Virus record (IMG/VR): IMGVR_UViG_3300017779_000120 | Coordinates: 1-26,800 of that record | DNA length: 26,800 nucleotides | DNA from: a virus | Strand: one strand, 5' to 3' | Notes under the pieces: model-generated | What the model saw: the letters and a program-made list of their open reading frames with translations, nothing else | Databases searched by the model: none | Told to the model about the DNA's origin: nothing | Translations under genes and position numbers: made by a program | Shown here: piece after piece, positions 10,467 to 25,270 of the stretch | Numbering within the stretch: the stretch's first letter is position 1 | Layout: each line of letters starts with the position of its first letter

Positions 10467-10646
10467 ATGAAAGACAAAGACCACACTGTATCGTACACAT
10501 CTATAGACTATCACTCTATGTGTGAGAAGTCAAAGAACCGCATCAAACGAATGCAGAAAGAAGGAATGCCTACGCCTCACGACTCAAAAGATAAGCCAGA
10601 GGACGTAGGCAAAACGGAAGGTTACTCCATACTGTTTATGTCATAG
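10467..10646 (+). CDS. Small conserved-looking gene at the end of the tail operon
   Basis: This is a 59-residue protein with GAGGA upstream at a good distance and ATG 5 bp after the large ejection gene. It is hydrophilic and Lys-rich (MKDKDHTVSYTSIDYHS, then KSKNRIKRMQKEG) with a Pro-rich middle and no membrane span. The reading frame closes only after it has run 6 bp into the convergent reductase gene. It has a proper ribosome site and sits in frame with the transcription of the operon, so I take it as real. I do not recognise it, and no function can be given. Confidence 0.5.
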   Translation: MKDKDHTVSYTSIDYHSMCEKSKNRIKRMQKEGMPTPHDSKDKPEDVGKTEGYSILFMS

Positions 10647-12506
10647 CTCACAGTTGTTCCCTGTGCAGGCCAGTTGCTGTGACCCTTCAGTCATATCGCT
10701 GGCCTCTTCTATATCCCACGATATTTCCTTCGGGAAATCCTTCACCATCTGGTTGTACGTCTTCTTGTCCACCGGCTCGTACGGCGCTTGCTGGTACGTG
10801 TGGTCTGAGTACGGCAAGAAGCTGATACCTGACACCTTGTCGAACTTGTTGTACAGCCACTGTCCTACCTCCAAGAACTCCTCGTCCCTGTAGTAGCAAG
10901 TCATAGACGGCTTATGCTCACACCACTCGTCTTGGTATATTTCCCAGAGTTCTAGCTGCTCCATAGCACCCATGTCTGAGGCTGTCACAGCGCCTTCAGG
11001 AGACGCGATAGGGAAGCTGAATACCCGGGTACTGGGGGACATCACATCGTCCTCCACAGGGACTCCTGCGGCCTCTAGAACGGTACAAAGCGGGTCACGA
11101 GAGTCAGCACGGACTCGCCTAATGTACTGATTGCTGTAGCGAGGGTGAATCCCACTAGCACTATCGACCAACTGACTAACAGTACCTGAAGGCTTAACAG
11201 CAGTAATGGCTGTAGATACGTTAATGCCCAGCCTACTGGCCCACTGCTCATTAGTTTTGACGGCCTCTGCTCGCATAGCTCTGAGCCACTTCTTGAGTTC
11301 ACTCTTGTCTCCTCGTCCTGACAGCGTCGGGTGATCCATGATACCTGTTAGGGATACGCCCAACAACGCCTCGTCTTCTGTATTAGCTCTCCAGATACTT
11401 CTCAAGTACCGGAAGTCGGTGAGGGTAGCCTGTAGAGTTCCAAGGATAGTCGCAATGCGTACTTTTCGTTTGAGGTCTGCGAGAGTATCGGTTTGCCGGA
11501 CAACAACCTCCGATAGATTGCAGAACTGGTAAGGTCGGAGGATGATTTCGCTACATGGATTAGTTCCAAAATCAAAGGAAGCATCTCGTCGCTCGTTTCT
11601 TGCAGCCTGTTTTTGACTAGCCACTCTAGAAAAGACACCTCGCTCTCCAGATCGGGATTCGTACAGGCTCGTCCACTCATTTAAAAACGCCTCAAAGTCT
11701 GGCTTCTCTGTGTAACACGCAGAGTTGTTTGCTAGTCCTCGTTGGGGGTTGTCAACCCACCACTGTCCGTGCTTACACCGTCGGAGTCTGTCGTCAGTGA
11801 GGTTGCTGAGACTGATGAGGGCTGATCTTCGGACTCCTCCCACGACGACGATTTGAGCAATCTTACAGCAAAGATCGTGGCACTCGACTGAGCTAAGTTT
11901 TCTTCCAGCCGCTCCCTGAAAGAGTTCAACTGTGAATCTGAATAGTTCGAGCAGAGGATCTGGACCCGATGCTCTACCTCCAAAAACTCGTAGCGCGGAA
12001 CCTGCAGGTCTAACTCTGCTAGTGTCCCACTGGGGAATCTGACCCGAATACAACAGTGATACCAGTTCCCTAAACGATTTCGCCCATCCGATCTTCGAAT
12101 CTGCCACATTAATAACTGTGTCGGTTTCATGGAATGTCTCTGCCACCTCCGGTAGTTTCTGTACGTACTGCCGTTCAACGCTGAAGCCCACACCTGTGCC
12201 GCACATCAAGACGTACATCATCTCGTCGAACGCCTTGGGGTGGTCGATAGGTAAGTAACTACAGTTGAACCCTGCTACGTTGTCCCGGTCCAGAGCCTCG
12301 CCAGCGGTCATCAACGCCCGCATTGAAGGCATGACTTCTAGATCGTGTATAGCCTTGAACACTTCCTTGTGTTCTTTCTCAGGCAGCTTCTCCCCCCAGT
12401 AATCTACGTAACGCCTCGCTGTTTCTTCCCACGACTCTCGACGTTGCTCTTCTGGCAAGTACCGTGCGTATCTCGACTTGTGTATGTACTGCTGGTACGC
12501 ATCCAT
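10641..12506 (-). CDS. Adenosylcobalamin-dependent (class II) ribonucleoside-triphosphate reductase
   Basis: This 621-residue monomeric class II reductase makes dNTPs from rNTPs using coenzyme B12. The visible active-site residues match the Lactobacillus leichmannii enzyme. Cys82 in FNCSY and Cys329 in FCNL would be the redox pair. NPCSEI at 316-321 carries Asn316, the radical Cys318 and Glu320. GTGVGFSVE at 103-111 and PSGTVSQLVDSASGIHP also fit. The tail ends in CTGNNCEL, a two-cysteine shuttle that re-reduces the active site. It is somewhat shorter than the bacterial enzyme, but all key residues are present. ATG abuts the stop of the upstream small gene, and AGGAG lies about 13 nt upstream inside that gene. 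It ends the replication operon and overlaps the convergent tail operon by 6 bp. It makes phage DNA synthesis depend on host B12. Confidence 0.93.
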   Translation of the reverse strand: MDAYQQYIHKSRYARYLPEEQRRESWEETARRYVDYWGEKLPEKEHKEVFKAIHDLEVMPSMRALMTAGEALDRDNVAGFNCSYLPIDHPKAFDEMMYVLMCGTGVGFSVERQYVQKLPEVAETFHETDTVINVADSKIGWAKSFRELVSLLYSGQIPQWDTSRVRPAGSALRVFGGRASGPDPLLELFRFTVELFQGAAGRKLSSVECHDLCCKIAQIVVVGGVRRSALISLSNLTDDRLRRCKHGQWWVDNPQRGLANNSACYTEKPDFEAFLNEWTSLYESRSGERGVFSRVASQKQAARNERRDASFDFGTNPCSEIILRPYQFCNLSEVVVRQTDTLADLKRKVRIATILGTLQATLTDFRYLRSIWRANTEDEALLGVSLTGIMDHPTLSGRGDKSELKKWLRAMRAEAVKTNEQWASRLGINVSTAITAVKPSGTVSQLVDSASGIHPRYSNQYIRRVRADSRDPLCTVLEAAGVPVEDDVMSPSTRVFSFPIASPEGAVTASDMGAMEQLELWEIYQDEWCEHKPSMTCYYRDEEFLEVGQWLYNKFDKVSGISFLPYSDHTYQQAPYEPVDKKTYNQMVKDFPKEISWDIEEASDMTEGSQQLACTGNNCEL

Positions 12507-15360: not shown

Positions 15361-15862
15361 TCTGGAACTCCTCTAAAAAGTCTGACAGCGATGTTAGTTT
15401 GTCTTGCGTCAAAGCGTGGAGCTTACCCCAACCCAAATCTGTTATTGTATCTTCGCTCAGCAAGTCTTCACGTTTTGCGAAACCCTTTATATCATAAGTA
15501 GGACACTCACCCACGAGTAACATGTAGTAATCACAGGCTTTGTTTTTCTTTTGGCGACCAGCTATTAGTCTGCCTGTCTGGTACTTGGTAGCCTTGACGT
15601 CTATGGTGACTCCGTTGTAAGTGAGGTCATGTACTTGGATCTCTTCAGTTAAGTCGGGCCACACGTTCAGAGCCTTGGCTGCTGCCAGTTCAGAGGCCAT
15701 GCCTTCGAGATCAGTTTCGTAGTCTGACTGTGGCCCCTTTCTGTTGTTGGAGATATTCTTTTCCCTGTTACTGTCAAACCTACGCTGTGCTATGAACTCG
15801 GCTACCTGACGTTCGCTGTTAGTGAGTGTTACTTCAGTGTGTGTCTGCCCATGTGGTTCCAA
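15353..15862 (-). CDS. PD-(D/E)XK-like phage protein, weak start
   Basis: The family-like part begins at TLTNSERQVAEFIAQRR and continues with SDYETDLEGMASELAAAKAL, then YNGVTIDVKATKYQTGRL, GECPTYDIKGFAKREDLL and DLGWGKLHALTQDKL. GMASELA supplies the early Glu and IDVKATK the Asp-x-Lys, so a nuclease fold is likely. Homologous phage proteins I recall begin only a few residues before the TNSERQ-like helix, but no ATG or GTG exists there. The nearest start codon is TTG at 15862, inside the last codons of the DNA polymerase gene, giving 169 residues. The frame stays open further upstream to 15985, but that part is a shadow of the polymerase. Start confidence is low, and gene confidence is good. 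Confidence 0.65.
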   Translation of the reverse strand: MEPHGQTHTEVTLTNSERQVAEFIAQRRFDSNREKNISNNRKGPQSDYETDLEGMASELAAAKALNVWPDLTEEIQVHDLTYNGVTIDVKATKYQTGRLIAGRQKKNKACDYYMLLVGECPTYDIKGFAKREDLLSEDTITDLGWGKLHALTQDKLTSLSDFLEEFQNE

Positions 15863-17480
15863 TTTTGAACTCTCCGTCCAGCGGACATCTGAGGTTAAAC
15901 GATACGCCAGCCTCCTTGAGGCAGCTGACTGCGAGTTGACCGTAAATCTCTGCTTGTTCTGTAACCACCTCCGATTGAATCTCATCGTGTATGTTCCCTA
16001 TGAAGCGATAGTTCAGGTTCTGTTCAGAAGCTGCGTCGTCCAAGAGGAGCAACGCTCGTTTCATTACGATAGCACCTGCGGCCTGCAGTAAAGTGTTTAA
16101 TGCACTATGCTCGGATCGAACCCAGAGTCGTCGTCCGTCGAGTCCTCGTAGGTAGCCTCGCCTAGACGCTTGCCCAACTCTGTCTCGTAGAGCTTCAAGA
16201 GCAGGTGTATTTCGAAGAAAGCGGTTCCGAAGAACTCGACCATCTGCTGCAGTTCCTCCGACGATGGTTCCGATTTTAGCGTCTCCGGCTCCGTACAGGA
16301 AAGCATATATGAAAGTCTTTGCCTGAGGTCTTGTCTGAAGACCCGCAGCAAGTTGATTTCTGGTGTGAATGTCTCCGTCAAGCAGAGCATCTGTAAACTC
16401 CTCGTCGCCCATGTAGTGAGCGAGCATCCGTAGTTCTAGTCCACTAGCATCAAAGCCTACTAGCTTGTAACCCTCTGGTACAATCCAACACTTACGGCAC
16501 TCTTCCCCGTACTCTGAACTAGCAGAAGGAACTTGTGCCATGTTGGGCCGTTGGTGTGTCATACGTCCAGTGACAGCACCGTTACTTATCACCCGCCCGT
16601 GTACCCTACCGTCGTCCTTGACGTGTTCCAGCCACGAGTTTACTTGTGCGTAACGCTTTTGCAGTAAGAGGTACTCCAAGACTTGTTGCGCTTCGGGGAC
16701 ATGATGATTCTCTTTAAGCGATTTCTCATCAACAACAGGCTTGCCTGTCGGAGTGAGGCTCGTCCAAACTGCACCCTTAGGTGTAAGCCTGTCGGCCACT
16801 TGTTGCCGCGACCCAACGTTGAATACAGTGACTTTATCCTTGAGTCTCTTACCAGTTTTCTCTGAGTATCTCTCTTCAACAATCGGCGGGAAAATCTCTT
16901 GTAGACTATGTTCAATTTCATTCATACGCTCCTTGAACTTAGCGCAGAGCATGTGACACAGGCGTTCGTCGAGCAACCAGCCGTTCCGTTCTTGTTGGTG
17001 CATGAGGTACTGAACGTGATGTTCTAGTTCGATACTCTCTTCTGAGAACCCGTCGAGTTCCTGTTGAAGCCTGTTGTACACAGCCTCTGTTAGCTCTACG
17101 TCACGTAAGCAGTAGTCGATCATCTCTGGTGTGAGCTGTGACCAGTCCTCGTGGTCGCCCTTGGGGAAGCCAAGGATGTTACCCCAGTTCCGCAGGGAGT
17201 GTCCACCAGACCGGCTGGGGTTAGCCAAGCGTGACAGTATCAGGGTATCAGTGACCATAGTCCTGTCAAAAGTAAAGTCCCAAAGATGCTCAACCACAGG
17301 AACATCAAAGCCAATTCCGTTGTGCAAAACGAACATGGCCGGGGCTTTACGCGATACATACGCTTTGAAGTCTTCTTCATTACAGATTACCTCGCTCTCT
17401 CCGTTGTGACGGCAGACTGCACACCAGATAGTTGTGGCGTCTAGACCGTCAGTCTCTATGTCACAGAAGACTAGGTTCAA
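15834..17480 (-). CDS. Family A DNA polymerase (T7 gp5-like) with 3'-5' exonuclease
   Basis: This is a 548-residue replicative polymerase. Exonuclease motifs: FCDIETDGL (Asp7, Glu9), HNGIGFDVPV (Asp59), YCLRDVELT (Tyr123, Asp127). Polymerase motif A is GFDASGLELR (Asp344). Motif B is RPQAKTFIYAFLYGAG, with Arg384, Lys388 and Tyr392, the position called 762 in E. coli Pol I. Motif C is IHDEI (His498, Asp499, Glu500). The palm and fingers follow T7 gp5 closely. At 548 residues against 704 in T7, the part between exonuclease and fingers is much shorter, and the thioredoxin-binding insert appears absent. The gene overlaps the primase-helicase by 4 bp (ATGA), as expected for partners of one replisome. 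Confidence 0.95.
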   Translation of the reverse strand: MNLVFCDIETDGLDATTIWCAVCRHNGESEVICNEEDFKAYVSRKAPAMFVLHNGIGFDVPVVEHLWDFTFDRTMVTDTLILSRLANPSRSGGHSLRNWGNILGFPKGDHEDWSQLTPEMIDYCLRDVELTEAVYNRLQQELDGFSEESIELEHHVQYLMHQQERNGWLLDERLCHMLCAKFKERMNEIEHSLQEIFPPIVEERYSEKTGKRLKDKVTVFNVGSRQQVADRLTPKGAVWTSLTPTGKPVVDEKSLKENHHVPEAQQVLEYLLLQKRYAQVNSWLEHVKDDGRVHGRVISNGAVTGRMTHQRPNMAQVPSASSEYGEECRKCWIVPEGYKLVGFDASGLELRMLAHYMGDEEFTDALLDGDIHTRNQLAAGLQTRPQAKTFIYAFLYGAGDAKIGTIVGGTAADGRVLRNRFLRNTPALEALRDRVGQASRRGYLRGLDGRRLWVRSEHSALNTLLQAAGAIVMKRALLLLDDAASEQNLNYRFIGNIHDEIQSEVVTEQAEIYGQLAVSCLKEAGVSFNLRCPLDGEFKIGTTWADTH

Positions 17481-19087
17481 AACTCTGCCTCCCTCGGGTT
17501 AGGGTTACCGCACTCTTGGATACGGCCTGTGAACCTGTCGTACCGTAGCCAACACGCTGGTCCTGTCTCTCCGGCGTACCGATTCTTCAGCACCCTGACA
17601 GCCGTAGTGTTTCGTTCGGCTGGGTCTTCGGCCTGTTGGTTACGTTCCATACCGATCACCATATCAGATAACTGAGCGATAGACTGAGACCCACGTAAGT
17701 CCTGCAGACTGATACGTCCACCGTCCTCGTGGGCTGTCCCTGTGCCGCGCCGTAAGTGGGACACGAGGAACAGGGTGATGCCTGTCTCTGCCACCAGTGT
17801 GCGTAGCTTGGTCATAATCTCATCTATAGCTTTCCGTTCGTCCCCGTTCTCTTGAGAAGAAACCACGATTGACAGGTGGTCGAGTACGATATATCTGCAG
17901 TCGCAGGCCTTTGCCATGTGCCGTACTCTTGAAAGAAGCTCATCGGCTGATGTTGATCCCCAGTGATCGAACAGGTAATAACGTCCAGACCCCATCGTTG
18001 CTTCCCAATGAGGTCTAAGCTCAACAACAGGCGTGTCTTCCTCCAAGTGGAGTCGCCTTGATGCTGCCACCGACATAATTCCCAGAGCTGTAGTCGCGAC
18101 GTCCTCCTCCAGTGCAAGTACACCGATGTTGGCGTCTGTGCGTTGAAGCAGATCGTACTCAAGCTCTCGGATAAACTGGGACTTTCCCATACCACTACCG
18201 CTTGTGATAGTGACAAGTTCGTACGGTCTGTGGCCTCGTGTGACATCGTTCAACCCCTCCCAAGGGTACGGTACACTCTGTATCTGTCGTTTGTTTACGA
18301 GGGCGTCCCACGTATCTGAACCAGCGACGATACCGTCGGGTCTGTAAACCTTCGAGTCCCACCACGCCTGTGTAAACTCCTGCACCCTGTTAGCTATCAG
18401 CATTTCGCTGGCGTCCTTCAGGGGTAGCTTACATATCTTGAGTTTGTTGGGGCTGAACAGGTCTTTGATCTGATCTGTTGCTAACTCTCCTGCCTTGTCT
18501 TGGTCAAAGCAGATGACCACATTCTCGTAGCCTTCGAGCCACTCTAGTTGTGCCTTGATCTCCTTGGCGGCACTAGATGCACCAGCCCGAAGGGACACTA
18601 CGTCCCACTTCTGTCCGAACATCTCGTACACAGACATGGCGTCTACCTCGCCCTCTGTGATGGTGATGTACTTACCTCTACCCCTGCACTGTCGCTGACC
18701 GAACAGCCCTACGTTGGTCATGTTACCTGTACAGAGAAAGTCCTTGGTGTTTACGATGCGACACTTAGTGGCAATTATCTCGCCAGTGTTGACGTCGTGG
18801 TACGGGTAGAAATGTTTGGCAATTTTACCATCCGGCGCGTAGTCCACCGATACTTGGTATTTTTTCACAGTATTTAGTGACAGCTTGCGGTCGTGGATAG
18901 AAGCAACCACACCACCTAGCTGTAAGTTACTGGGTGTAGTCACCTGAAATTCTTCTCCTGTCTCGCCGTTAACGTGGTAGTCACAGCCCGGAGTAAAACA
19001 ATGGCGGCCACCGTTAGAGTAGACCGCCACGTTATCCCTACTACCGCACTTAGGACATGGTTCCTTGTGTTGGTAGCCGCTAGACAC
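17477..19087 (-). CDS. Bifunctional DNA primase-helicase (T7 gp4-like)
   Basis: This is a 536-residue protein with three parts. A zinc-binding domain has Cys11, Cys14, Cys30 and Cys35. A TOPRIM primase domain has ITEGEVDA (Glu145) and ICFDQDKAG (Asp195, Asp197). A RecA-type DnaB-family helicase has the P-loop SGSGMGKS at 296-303, catalytic Glu in LALEED (327-328), Walker B VLDHLS (Asp403), motif H3 LFLVSHLRRG and motif H4 around DLRGSQSIAQLSDM. It would unwind the fork and make primers for the polymerase. It starts 2 bp after the ssDNA-binding protein gene and overlaps the polymerase start by 4 bp. The C-terminal tail is not clearly acidic, unlike that of T7 gp4. Confidence 0.95.
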   Translation of the reverse strand: MSSGYQHKEPCPKCGSRDNVAVYSNGGRHCFTPGCDYHVNGETGEEFQVTTPSNLQLGGVVASIHDRKLSLNTVKKYQVSVDYAPDGKIAKHFYPYHDVNTGEIIATKCRIVNTKDFLCTGNMTNVGLFGQRQCRGRGKYITITEGEVDAMSVYEMFGQKWDVVSLRAGASSAAKEIKAQLEWLEGYENVVICFDQDKAGELATDQIKDLFSPNKLKICKLPLKDASEMLIANRVQEFTQAWWDSKVYRPDGIVAGSDTWDALVNKRQIQSVPYPWEGLNDVTRGHRPYELVTITSGSGMGKSQFIRELEYDLLQRTDANIGVLALEEDVATTALGIMSVAASRRLHLEEDTPVVELRPHWEATMGSGRYYLFDHWGSTSADELLSRVRHMAKACDCRYIVLDHLSIVVSSQENGDERKAIDEIMTKLRTLVAETGITLFLVSHLRRGTGTAHEDGGRISLQDLRGSQSIAQLSDMVIGMERNQQAEDPAERNTTAVRVLKNRYAGETGPACWLRYDRFTGRIQECGNPNPREAEF

Positions 19088-19089
19088 AG

Positions 19090-19473
19090 TTAAAAGTCCA
19101 CACCCTCTGTGACTTCTTGAGGTGCTTCTTCGAGTACACGGATGGCGTTGAGGTACGTCGATGTACCGTGTTCACCTACGGCTGGCCCGAGGTTGTACAG
19201 CAATCGTACACGGGAGTTGCGAGGGATTTCACCAGAGTAGGGGTTGTCATCTGCGTCGATTACACGTAAGTCAAACTTACTGGTGAACTTGCGTTGCTTG
19301 AATACCTTGTCCTCTGGTTGGTACTCTCTGATCTTTACACCGTTAGATGACAGCTCATCAGCTACGTCGTCGTCTAACGTGATAGTCAGAGAATATTTGC
19401 CAGTGCTTTGGTCTTTGTACACTTCGTGTTGGGTTACGTTACTGAATGCAACTAAGCCTTCTATAGTATTCAT
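19090..19473 (-). CDS. Single-stranded-DNA-binding protein (OB-fold type)
   Basis: I chose the ATG at 19473 (127 residues, beginning MNTIEGLVAFSNVTQHEVY) because AAGGA lies 9 nt upstream. A TTG at 19500 would add nine residues but lacks a good ribosome site. The protein is beta-rich with alternating charged and hydrophobic residues (KYSLTITLDDDVADEL, FKQRKFTSKFDLRVID, RNSRVRLLYNLG) and ends EGVDF. A C-terminal Asp-Phe after an acidic stretch is typical of SSB and T7 gp2.5, where it docks other replication proteins. Its place directly before the primase-helicase fits well. There is no single diagnostic motif, so the call is based on pattern and context. Confidence 0.75.
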   Translation of the reverse strand: MNTIEGLVAFSNVTQHEVYKDQSTGKYSLTITLDDDVADELSSNGVKIREYQPEDKVFKQRKFTSKFDLRVIDADDNPYSGEIPRNSRVRLLYNLGPAVGEHGTSTYLNAIRVLEEAPQEVTEGVDF

Positions 19474-19505
19474 AAGTTCTAGTCCTTGGTTGTTTAACAA
19501 AAAGG

Positions 19506-19733: not shown

Positions 19734-19929
19734 CGCTGTAGTCTCTCCCGAAGAAACCCTCCCACTCGCTCTCTAGCTTACTGTAAGACCACCTGCGGTA
19801 GTAAGCGTAGTGTTCCTCTAGTTTGCTCCCATCGCCCTCGTACACGCTGGCGGACCAGTGGGACCACTCAGCCATATCTGACAGCATTATCTCGTACTGT
19901 GGATCTACCTCACCTCGTTTCGTTGTCAT
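19723..19929 (-). CDS. Small Trp/Tyr/Glu-rich protein, function unknown
   Basis: This is a 68-residue protein rich in aromatic residues (WSHWSASVY, HYAYYRRWSYSKLESEWEGF) and acidic overall. There is no membrane segment and no metal site. The start is an ATG that overlaps the stop of the sigma-region-4-like gene (ATGA), so translation is coupled to it. The two products may act together. I do not recognise it, and function is unknown. Confidence 0.52.
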   Translation of the reverse strand: MTTKRGEVDPQYEIMLSDMAEWSHWSASVYEGDGSKLEEHYAYYRRWSYSKLESEWEGFFGRDYSDAL

Positions 19930-20132
19930 TGGGTATTCCTCCCTATTCCTTTACCTTCGTCTCGCCACGTACCGTCGCACATGTCACGGAACTGGTCGAG
20001 TTTGCCCTGGTTGCGTAACTTCCGCAGTGCCTTGAACTCGATGGCACGGACGGACTCAGGCGATATGCCCAAGACCTCCGAGATCTGTTTGTACGTCATC
20101 GGTTTGCCGTTTCCTTTCTCTGTCTCTTTCAC
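19926..20132 (-). CDS. Minimal sigma-70 region 4-like DNA-binding protein
   Basis: This is a 68-residue protein with a GTG start behind AGGAG at 20143-20147, and no upstream sigma domains. Residues 13-40 are a helix-turn-helix of sigma-70 region 4.2: TYKQISEVLGISPESVR then AIEFKALRKLR. The IE-x-KALRKLR end is almost the same as in E. coli RpoD. Regions 1-3 and the -10-reading part are absent, so it cannot work as a full sigma factor. It may bind -35 elements, or compete with or remodel host sigma on RNA polymerase, to steer the switch from early to late genes. This is attractive because no phage RNA polymerase is visible. That role is inferred, whereas the domain itself is clear. Confidence 0.78.
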   Translation of the reverse strand: MKETEKGNGKPMTYKQISEVLGISPESVRAIEFKALRKLRNQGKLDQFRDMCDGTWRDEGKGIGRNTQ

Positions 20133-22458: not shown

Positions 22459-22507
22459 GCGCGAGTGACTGGTGTCTGCCTGAGGGTACTTCTCTGGCTC
22501 ACACACT

Positions 22508-22558
22508 CGTGTTACCTGTGTTACCTGTGTTACCTGCGGGTGTGTTACCTGTGTTACT
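22508..22558. repeat. Iteron array of 9-bp repeats
   Basis: Units of TGTGTTACC start at 22508 (first base C), 22517, 22526, 22541 and 22550 (last base T). A 6-bp TGCGGG insert separates the third and fourth. The last unit leads into a perfect inverted repeat, GTTACT-TTT-AGTAAC at 22553-22567. Short, tandem, same-direction repeats like this are typical initiator-protein binding sites. Confidence 0.8.
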
Positions 22559-22580
22559 TTTAGTAACCCTGTGTGTAACC

Positions 22581-22617
22581 TGTGGATAACTCGGGCCTGT
22601 GGAAAACCTGTGGATAA
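22581..22617. other. Cluster of three DnaA-box-like sites
   Basis: TGTGGATAA, the complement of the consensus DnaA box TTATCCACA, occurs exactly at 22581-22589 and 22609-22617. A one-mismatch copy (TGTGGAAAA) lies between them at 22598-22606. All three have the same orientation. Two exact copies within 37 bp are unlikely by chance. Confidence 0.75.
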
Positions 22618-22715
22618 CTTGGGCCGGGGGCCGGGGTTGACGCATGTCGTCGCGCGTGGTTGCCACCCAAGTTTGCAAGAGGGTAATTTTAGAAAAAGGG
22701 GTAATAATACCTAAA

Positions 22716-22751
22716 TTAACTCGTGTGCTAACCCTTTGTTTTAACTCGTGT
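22716..22751. repeat. Pair of 11-bp direct repeats
   Basis: TTAACTCGTGT occurs at 22716-22726 and 22741-22751, 25 bp apart, just to the right of the AT-rich segment of the candidate origin. It could be a second class of protein-binding site. Confidence 0.6.
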
Positions 22752-22837
22752 TTCCTTGGGCGGCCTAAAGGAGACTAAATAGGGTGGAAACTAAAGAGGT
22801 AATTAGTATTCTTATGAAATATTACCACAAATAAAGC

Positions 22838-22866
22838 TTGACTTTTGGATAAAAGTATGGTATAAT
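22838..22866 (+). promoter_or_regulatory. Strong sigma-70 promoter for the packaging operon
   Basis: TTGACT (22838-22843), a 17-bp spacer and TATAAT (22861-22866) make a near-perfect housekeeping promoter. TGG just before the -10 box gives an extended -10. The upstream side is AT-rich and holds the ATATTACCAC motif at 22819-22828. Transcription would start near 22873 and read the terminase and virion genes, so host RNA polymerase with host sigma should suffice. Confidence 0.8.
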
Positions 22867-22908
22867 ATATTCAGATATTAAGTATTACTAATAAAGGGTT
22901 CGTATAGA

Positions 22909-22938
22909 TCCCCTCATCTGTATACTTAAGTTAGGGGA
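22909..22938 (+). promoter_or_regulatory. Possible 5' leader stem
   Basis: TCCCCT (22909-22914) can pair with AGGGGA (22933-22938) in the presumed leader transcript. A GGG at 22896-22898 offers a competing partner. The right arm contains the ribosome site of the short leader frame that follows, so folding could control its translation. The evidence is only base pairing. Confidence 0.3.
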
Positions 22939-22941
22939 CTC

Positions 22942-22977
22942 ATGCGAAACCGTGTAAAACAGACAGGTACTGGATAA
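22942..22977 (+). CDS. Possible 11-residue leader peptide
   Basis: This is an ATG frame of 11 codons (MRNRVKQTGTG) behind AGGGG. Its stop TAA overlaps the start of the next gene (TAATG at 22975-22979). The following gene has only a weak ribosome site of its own, so ribosomes finishing this peptide could restart there. It is too short to judge by composition, and chance cannot be excluded. Confidence 0.3.
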   Translation: MRNRVKQTGTG

Positions 22978-23387
22978 TGTCAGACGAAGACACCCAAGAA
23001 CCGCCAAAGAGAGGCCGTGGCCGTCCAAAAAAAGGAGAAATTGTAGCAAAAAAGAAGGGTTCTAGAGGAATCCGAGGTCGTCCAAAGGGCGATGCTGCAA
23101 TAATTAACGAGTACAAGGCCCGTATGCTGGCTAGTCCTAAGTCAGCCAGAGTTTTAGAAACCATATTTGAAGCTGCACTAGACCACGATCACAAGAATCA
23201 AGCTGCTGCGTGGAAACTAGTGATGGATCGTATTCTGCCAGTAGGTGCATTTGAGAAGGAAGTGGTAAAAGATGCAGGGAGAAGTGCAATACAGATCAAC
23301 ATTACTGGCGTTGGAGCTACAGAAGTTTTTACTAGCCCTGAAGAGGGAGAAACTATCGATGGAGAAGCAGTCGATGTCACAGGATAA
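22977..23387 (+). CDS. Probable terminase small subunit with two AT-hooks
   Basis: This is a 136-residue protein. Two AT-hook cores lie in a basic N-terminus, RGRGRPKKG at about residues 12-20 and RGIRGRPKGD at about residues 30-39. A helical core follows (INEYKARMLASPKSARVLE, then DHDHKNQAAAWKLVMDRIL), and the tail is acidic. AT-hooks would grip AT-rich DNA. The position as first gene of the packaging operon, three genes before the large terminase, suggests a pac/cos-recognising small terminase subunit. It could instead be a transcription or nucleoid protein. The promoter at 22838 reads directly into it. Confidence 0.6.
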   Translation: MSDEDTQEPPKRGRGRPKKGEIVAKKKGSRGIRGRPKGDAAIINEYKARMLASPKSARVLETIFEAALDHDHKNQAAAWKLVMDRILPVGAFEKEVVKDAGRSAIQINITGVGATEVFTSPEEGETIDGEAVDVTG

Positions 23388-24019: not shown

Positions 24020-25270
24020 GTGACTGACTTAAACGTACAGTTACTACCGTGGCAACAAGAAGTCTATTCTGACTCAACACGGTTCAAGGTAGTTGCTGCA
24101 GGACGACGGACAGGAAAGTCTAGACTTGCAGCGTGGATGTTAATTATCAATGCACTACAGTCCGACAAAGGGCAAGTGTTTTACGTTGCGCCTACTCAGG
24201 GACAAGCCCGTGACATCATGTGGCAAACTCTCTTAGAGCTAGGACACCCTGTGATTGCAGGATCACACATCAACAACCTGCAGATCAGGCTGGTCAACGG
24301 GGCCACGATTAGTCTCAAAGGAGCCGACAGGCCAGAGACAATGCGTGGTGTGTCCTTGAAGTTTCTCGTGATGGACGAGTACGCAGACATGAAGCCTGAC
24401 GTATGGGAGCAGATTCTTCGTCCAGCACTAGCTGACCAAAAGGGATCAGCAATGTTTATAGGTACTCCTATGGGCAGGAACCACTTCTACGAACTGTATA
24501 AACTTGCGGAGCTAGGAGACGATGAAACTTACAAGGGGTGGCACTTTACCAGTTATGACAACCCCATACTCGACCCTGAAGAAATTGACACAGCAAAGAA
24601 GTCCATGTCGAGTTACGCCTTCCGACAAGAGTTTATGGCCTCATTTGAAGCAAGAGGCTCCGAAATGTTTAAAGAAGGCTGGGTCCAGTTTGGTGAAGAA
24701 CCAGACGTAGGCGATTACTATATTGCTGTCGACCTCGCAGGATTTGAAGACGTAAACAAAAAACGAACTAAGAACACTAAACTAGATGAAACCGCAATCG
24801 CTGTTGTTAAAGTTAATCCTGATGGTTGGTACGTTGATAACATTGTACATGGGCGGTGGAGCCTTAACGAGACTGCCACCAAGATATTTCAGACCGTTAG
24901 AGATTACAGACCCGTTAGTGTTGGTATTGAAAAAGGAATTGCTAAACAAGCTGTAATGTCTCCTCTGAGCGATCTGATGAAGCGGTACGGAACATTTTTT
25001 AGGGTAGAAGAACTAACCCACGGTAACCGAAAGAAAACTGACAGGGTTATGTGGGCTTTACAAGGACGGTTTGAAAACGGCTACGTTAGCTTAAACAAAG
25101 GTGAGTGGAACAACAGATTCTTAGATCAACTGTTTCAGTTTCCAGATGTGCTAACACACGATGACTTAGTTGACGCACTCGCGTACATAGACCAGTTAGC
25201 ACAAGTAGCGTACGACTACGACTACGAAATTGACGACCACGAAATACTAGACGTAATAGCAGGATACTAA
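24020..25270 (+). CDS. Terminase large subunit
   Basis: This is a 416-residue packaging motor with an ATPase and a nuclease domain. Walker A is AAGRRTGKS (27-34, Lys33) and Walker B is LKFLVMDEYAD (Asp119, Glu120). The RNase-H-like nuclease has IAVDLAGFED (Asp237), GIEKG (Glu303) and THDDLVDALAY (Asp380, Asp381, Asp384). It cuts concatemeric DNA and pumps it into the capsid through the portal. The start is GTG 5 bp after the endolysin and has no clear ribosome site, so reinitiation from the previous gene is likely. All catalytic residues appear intact. Confidence 0.93.
   Translation: MTDLNVQLLPWQQEVYSDSTRFKVVAAGRRTGKSRLAAWMLIINALQSDKGQVFYVAPTQGQARDIMWQTLLELGHPVIAGSHINNLQIRLVNGATISLKGADRPETMRGVSLKFLVMDEYADMKPDVWEQILRPALADQKGSAMFIGTPMGRNHFYELYKLAELGDDETYKGWHFTSYDNPILDPEEIDTAKKSMSSYAFRQEFMASFEARGSEMFKEGWVQFGEEPDVGDYYIAVDLAGFEDVNKKRTKNTKLDETAIAVVKVNPDGWYVDNIVHGRWSLNETATKIFQTVRDYRPVSVGIEKGIAKQAVMSPLSDLMKRYGTFFRVEELTHGNRKKTDRVMWALQGRFENGYVSLNKGEWNNRFLDQLFQFPDVLTHDDLVDALAYIDQLAQVAYDYDYEIDDHEILDVIAGY

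Follow-up and report, generated by a model that had tools for sequence, protein, structure and literature searches.

Introduction

Phage T7 possesses a polymerase, a primase-helicase and a single-strand binding protein (SSB), its genome has direct terminal repeats, and phage promoters are located at its primary origin of replication. In plasmid iteron origins and in P1 oriR, iterons, DnaA boxes and AT-rich DNA are found together. The basal unwinding system of bacterial oriC consists of tandem DnaA boxes facing in the same direction, a GC-rich spacer and AT-rich DNA (PMC6669920, PMC8287927), and an injection stop signal has been described in the terminal repeat of phage T5, in which DnaA boxes occur together with palindromes, repeats and inverted repeats (PMC13250531).

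The present work concerns a stretch of 26,800 nucleotides (referred to below as the window), which is a fragment of an IMG/VR virus record, its portal gene being truncated by the right end of the window. A reading of this DNA made from its letters alone (the sequence-only reading) had proposed that the region 22508-22730 has the layout of a theta-type origin within a T7-type phage. Judging from the sequence comparisons described here, this region has the appearance of an exchangeable landing pad for host proteins; a replication origin is not proven. A broader proposal has in our view an even chance of being correct, viz. that in this large uncultured podovirus group the terminal repeat is a standard slot with two conserved borders, that this slot receives, in exchange for one another, arrays of sites for host regulators (DnaA, sigma-54 polymerase, Fur-like proteins and others), and that the host protein recruited by the array is therefore needed for some step of the life cycle that takes place at the genome ends.

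Gene content of the window and its relatives

The replication genes of the window, viz. those for a family A DNA polymerase (pol A; 15834-17480), a primase-helicase with Toprim and DnaB_C domains (17477-19087) and a gp2.5-like SSB (PHROG 112; 19090-19500), lie on the minus strand and run leftward. The rightward genes on the plus strand begin at 22977 with the presumed small terminase subunit (22977-23387), which shows no family match and is assigned by its position, a homologue being present at the same place in the relatives; the others are those for an M15 peptidase, the large terminase (24020-25270; Pfam Terminase_6N and 6C, PHROG terminase) and the portal. The region under study is located between these divergent operons, with the leftward early operon on one of its sides. 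The replication genes agree with the earlier description of this phage as T7-type, but the terminase, which is of the Terminase_6 kind and for which there is no close isolate, does not. Further, the single-subunit RNA polymerase gene characteristic of T7-type phages (Autographiviridae) was detected neither in the window nor in any of 11 long relatives, in a search where the T7 positive control was detected, and the earlier statement that no phage RNA polymerase is present is therefore upheld.

Homology scans of IMG/VR returned hundreds of relatives, and about 180 of these show the region. No close isolate of the window phage was identified by terminase or polymerase comparison: the closest large terminases in GenBank phages show 39-45% identity, the matches covering between half and two thirds of the protein, and the closest polymerase, from the pelagiphages HTVC103P and HTVC104P, shows 47% identity. 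The core element of the cassette described below gave no match in isolated phages. The only two genome_contigs matches were metagenome bins from unrelated phyla (Sphingobacteriales and Verrucomicrobiales), and due to this no host is assigned. A tyrosine integrase was searched for and not found, and an Rfam search gave no match. In the 20 contigs searched for each, neither a DnaA gene (PF08299) nor a gene for a sigma-54 activator (enhancer-binding protein) was present, so the partners of the arrays described below would be host proteins. Among the small genes neighbouring the region, several of which have no assigned function, no Rep was recognisable. Elsewhere in the window, a 68-aa protein (19926-20132, minus strand) matches sigma-70 region 4 (Pfam E 3e-10) and is possibly a small transcription factor working with the host RNA polymerase; a gene at 10641-12506 (minus strand) is similar to B12-dependent (class II) ribonucleotide reductase; and a 9-bp tandem repeat array at 2625-2813, within a structural gene, encodes a collagen-like GPT repeat.

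Elements of the cassette and conservation of its DnaA boxes

In the relatives, the region is organised as a cassette. A left element (GAGGGTMCWWCWCTGGYYCACACAC) comes first and is followed by an array, which varies and measures about 90-300 bp, then by a block rich in G and finally by a core with an A-rich end. In the window, the left border is formed by the left element GAGGGTACTTCTCTGGCTCACACAC (22482-22506, plus strand), which is conserved in both clades of relatives and at or near which contigs start. It is followed by five 9-bp iterons (22509-22559, plus strand), viz. GTGTTACCT at 22509, 22518, 22527 and 22542 and GTGTTACTT at 22551, the spacings being 9, 9, 15 and 9. The DnaA boxes, all on the plus strand, comprise an exact box TGTGGATAA (TTATCCACA on the minus strand) at 22581-22589, a near-exact box TGTGGAAAA with one mismatch at 22598-22606, and an exact box TGTGGATAA at 22609-22617, which is closest to the GC block GGGCCGGGGGCCGGGG (22621-22636); a G-rich block is found at the same place in the cassettes of relatives. 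The conserved core GTTGCCACCCAAGTTTGCAAGAGGGTAATTTTAGAAAAA (22659-22697), to which profile matches were obtained in 85 loci, lies just beyond a presumed right-end cut at about 22658/22659. The iterons, the DnaA boxes and the GC block were thus all correctly recognised by the sequence-only reading, and the boxes at 22581 and 22609 are the only exact ones in the whole 26.8-kb window. As for the AT-rich stretch that it reported, the 100-bp segment with the highest A+T content in the window (78%) is adjacent, at 22788-22887, just beyond the interval 22508-22730. This segment, a possible unwinding region, includes a rightward sigma-70 promoter (TTGACT-17-TATAAT, 11/12; 22838-22866, plus strand), which is also present in relatives. 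A leader hairpin GTTCG...CGAA(A)C (22898-22950, plus strand), upstream of the small-terminase-like gene, is conserved as well: among 19 distinct sequences, one of its stem pairs is C-G in 12, T-A in the other 7 and broken in 0.

Of 400 first-order Markov resamples of the window, 0 had two exact DnaA boxes within 60 bp and 0 had four iterons within 60 bp; by this resampling and by scrambled controls, chance or base composition is ruled out as the source of the repeats. In 140 distinct cassettes, a set partly found by motif scans, 254 exact DnaA boxes occur in 42 kb of slots as compared to 12 in 1.0 Mb of flanking sequence, which is a 508-fold higher density in the array slot than outside, and scrambled and reversed versions of the box gave 0 matches in the slots. 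The loci found by protein homology alone (103 slots, 31 kb) contain 188 exact boxes, with at least two boxes in 40 of the 103. The spacing between boxes peaks at 11/12, 22 and 33 bp, their orientation in the slots is 219 on the plus strand versus 35 on the minus strand, and in 50 of the 54 loci with at least two boxes the box closest to the GC block is on the plus strand, facing it. Some distant relatives, with large terminases about 57-74% identical to that of the window, carry 6-11 exact boxes (the largest array, of 11, is in L202), many phages of the group have 2-3 boxes only, and most relatives sharing the core have no DnaA boxes, their slots containing sigma-54 sites or other palindromes instead. 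The DnaA-box cluster is thus real and strongly conserved, and its direction and helical phasing are such as binding by host DnaA would need.

Exchange of arrays between conserved borders

The left element, the G block and the core are common to two clades, between which the large terminases show about 57% identity, but the array is not conserved. One type of array consists of the sigma-54 -24/-12 element TGGCAC-N5-TTGC, which shows 122 exact sites in slots versus 14 outside (209-fold enrichment) and 0 in slots when its spacing is changed by plus or minus one; the positions flanking these sites also fit the consensus known from a list of sigma-54 binding sites (PMC3844500). Up to nine sites are found in 230 bp of one slot. 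Nine consensus sites per approximately 230 bp are seen in the slots of L062, L063, L058, L071 and L074, many of them in facing pairs with the -12 elements 4-7 bp apart. Where DnaA boxes are also present in the slot, most of the sigma-54 sites point leftward. When viral contigs were scanned blindly for pairs of sigma-54 sites, this phage group accounted for 49 of 115 contigs among the matches listed, a few of the 49 being distant relatives with terminase matches only 23-32% identical. Another slot array is made up of CTGTGGTA...TACCACAG palindromes. A 35-bp palindrome, CTGTGGTAGGNCTTNGGGCCTCGTGACTACCACAG, is present in the slots of L107, L125, L147, L158, L018 and others. Fur-like boxes occur in clade II slots, with 34 matches having at most one mismatch and 0 matches at altered spacing. 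Clade II also has repeat families TGTCTCATTTATACAACA, AGAACACACAGTGTTTTC and CCTTATNACGCGC, seen in the slots of L416 and L483, of L413, and of L423-L430, respectively, for which no known regulator was recognised.

On a large-terminase tree that includes motif-found loci, 30 changes of array type are required, and different arrays are found beside terminases that are nearly identical. As many relatives that share the core, and whose terminases are nearly identical, are lacking the DnaA boxes and have other arrays, DnaA cannot be essential to the cassette.

Placement of the cassette at presumed genome ends

A location at the genome ends was not considered in the sequence-only reading. In three full-length relatives the cassette is present at both contig ends, as a repeat of 295 bp with 99.0% identity in G001 (40,151 bp), of 137 bp with 95% identity in G036 (36,208 bp) and of 221 bp with 100% identity in G031 (36,338 bp), and the right ends of all three fall on the corresponding base, 13 nt short of the A-run in the core. 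A segment at both ends with constant end positions, as is characteristic of a direct terminal repeat, is thus seen in each of them. Contig ends also cluster at the cassette. L031 and L052 both start exactly at GAGGGT|CCTACACTGG, and a start base is likewise shared by contigs from different metagenomes within L412/L417 and within L425/L427/L428/L429. On the early side, the contig right ends near the cassette are too few to add support. Further, G002, G004 and G045 show imperfect end overlaps at other, unrelated genome positions, so end repeats alone are not decisive. Since the cassette is at both ends of full-length relatives, whose right ends are at the same base, it is most likely a direct terminal repeat, with terminase cut sites at its borders. 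By analogy with G001, G036 and G031, the window segment at about 22488-22658 (approximately 171 bp, with the iterons, the DnaA boxes and the GC block) is probably this repeat collapsed to one copy, the window itself being a fragment; the repeat would then be a physical end in the window phage, with the left genome end presumed to be between 22487 and 22488.

Evidence bearing on a replication origin

The conservation of DnaA boxes beside an AT-rich segment, which is to be expected of a theta or iteron origin, is found in many relatives, although not in all. However, a fixed iteron spacing between relatives is not seen, as iterons are kept only in the near relatives, where there are 2-5 copies with varying spacing. 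DnaA-trios showed no excess over shuffles at 0-16 bp after the last box, where the oriC basal unwinding system would have them on one strand. The cumulative GC skew does have a minimum at about 22.0-22.4 kb, close to the turn suggested earlier, but this turn coincides with a switch in gene orientation and should not be taken as independent evidence. GC skew was rejected as evidence for an origin, because its turns match such switches and the coding-strand skew at 4-fold sites is without a consistent sign. In view of the variable iterons, the many relatives without DnaA boxes, the DnaA-trio result and the uninformative skew, the label of a theta-type origin as such is not established for this region.

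Discussion

The explanation that we consider best, although tentatively and as somewhat more likely to be wrong than right, is that the cassette is an exchangeable array in the terminal repeat of a linear podovirus genome, at which host DnaA starts replication at the joined ends. The ends of the linear genome would be joined in circles or concatemers, host DnaA would assemble there on the phased, same-facing boxes and open the AT-rich DNA past the GC block, and the phage primase-helicase would be loaded at the opened DNA, starting replication. What has been computed here is the presence of the array, how it is conserved, phased, directed and exchanged, and the repeats at both ends in three relatives; to these findings, the explanation adds a predicted binding of host DnaA at the boxes and a predicted replication start at the cassette. 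Such a start fits the phasing and direction of the boxes, the GC block and the AT-rich flank, and also the fact that no phage polymerase was found that could fire a T7-type origin. The free exchange with other arrays, the DnaA-trio result and the uninformative skew count against it, as does the fact that the 11-bp box spacing could result from tandem duplication of an 11-bp unit. To our knowledge, there is no known case of DnaA handover to a gp4-type helicase.

If the arrays instead act as terminal roadblocks, host proteins bound to them at the ends (DnaA, sigma-54 RNA polymerase or Fur-like repressors) would hold up the DNA on its entry, protect the ends, or make the enzymes of replication or packaging pause where genomes are joined in the concatemer. 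In such a case the identity of the bound protein is irrelevant and the arrays become exchangeable, which accounts for the DnaA, sigma-54, Fur-like and palindrome swaps in one slot of a presumed terminal repeat, and the T5 injection stop signal, with its DnaA boxes among repeats, inverted repeats and palindromes, is a described precedent (PMC13250531). However, a roadblock would need less specificity than is seen in directional, helically phased DnaA boxes beside a GC block, there is no isolate with a closely related terminase, and the entry role is suggested by analogy; we regard this explanation as unlikely, although it is a serious contender. The divergent operons flanking the cassette draw attention to another role, viz. 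regulation of early promoters by an array upstream of the leftward early operon, with DnaA and Fur-like proteins as repressors and the sigma-54 sites as promoters. The enrichment of the latter sites, their strict spacing and their mostly leftward direction where DnaA boxes are also present agree with this, but two facing sites with -12 elements 4-7 bp apart cannot be used as promoters simultaneously, up to nine sites per 230 bp is odd for promoters, and no enhancer-binding protein gene was found in the 20 contigs, although a host could supply one. Such transcription control is less likely than the DnaA-driven start and on the whole improbable.

Titration is also less likely, and indeed very improbable. 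It supposes that host DnaA, sigma-54 or Fur is sequestered by the arrays, halting host replication or rewiring host expression. It would explain why the terminal repeat has so many perfect consensus sites, and the favoured target could differ from host to host; yet it needs neither a fixed orientation nor a fixed position beside the GC block and core, and many phages have only 2-3 boxes. Hardly any weight is given by us to the last interpretation, according to which the whole cassette is a terminase recognition region only and the array a binding site for the small terminase. The left element and the core are conserved at presumed cut sites, near the presumed small-terminase gene, but arrays of different types are found beside near-identical terminases, which means that terminase specificity does not reside in the array itself, and the array was rejected as the small-terminase site.

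The strongest new points of this work are the location, most likely in a terminal repeat, and the finding that phages which are nearly identical have exchanged their arrays of host-protein sites. If the proposed role of these arrays is true, phages without their own RNA polymerase can wire their genome ends to host DnaA, sigma-54 or Fur-like proteins, this wiring is exchangeable between near-identical phages, and the purpose of DnaA boxes in phage terminal repeats, such as that of T5, becomes comparable across many natural variants of the cassette.

In relation to the known systems, the co-occurrence of iterons, DnaA boxes and AT-rich DNA resembles plasmid iteron origins and P1 oriR, but no Rep protein has been identified here and neither the number nor the spacing of iterons is conserved. 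With T7 the phage shares a polymerase, a primase-helicase and an SSB of the same kind as well as (presumed) direct terminal repeats, whereas it differs in that no single-subunit RNA polymerase was found, arrays for host factors replace phage promoters, and the terminase is of the Terminase_6 type. The similarity to oriC lies in the tandem DnaA boxes of common orientation, after which come a GC-rich spacer and then AT-rich DNA; unlike oriC, however, the phage DnaA-trios are not enriched, the array is dispensable across relatives, and it is located at presumed genome ends. The nearest known analogue is the T5 injection stop signal, which is likewise described as a terminal segment where DnaA boxes and palindromes are combined with multiple repeats and inverted repeats, and by analogy it supports a role as a roadblock or in entry control. 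It differs from the cassette described here, which belongs to a podovirus of 36-40 kb and in which an exchangeable array, with sigma-54 and Fur-like sites as well, is held between two conserved borders.
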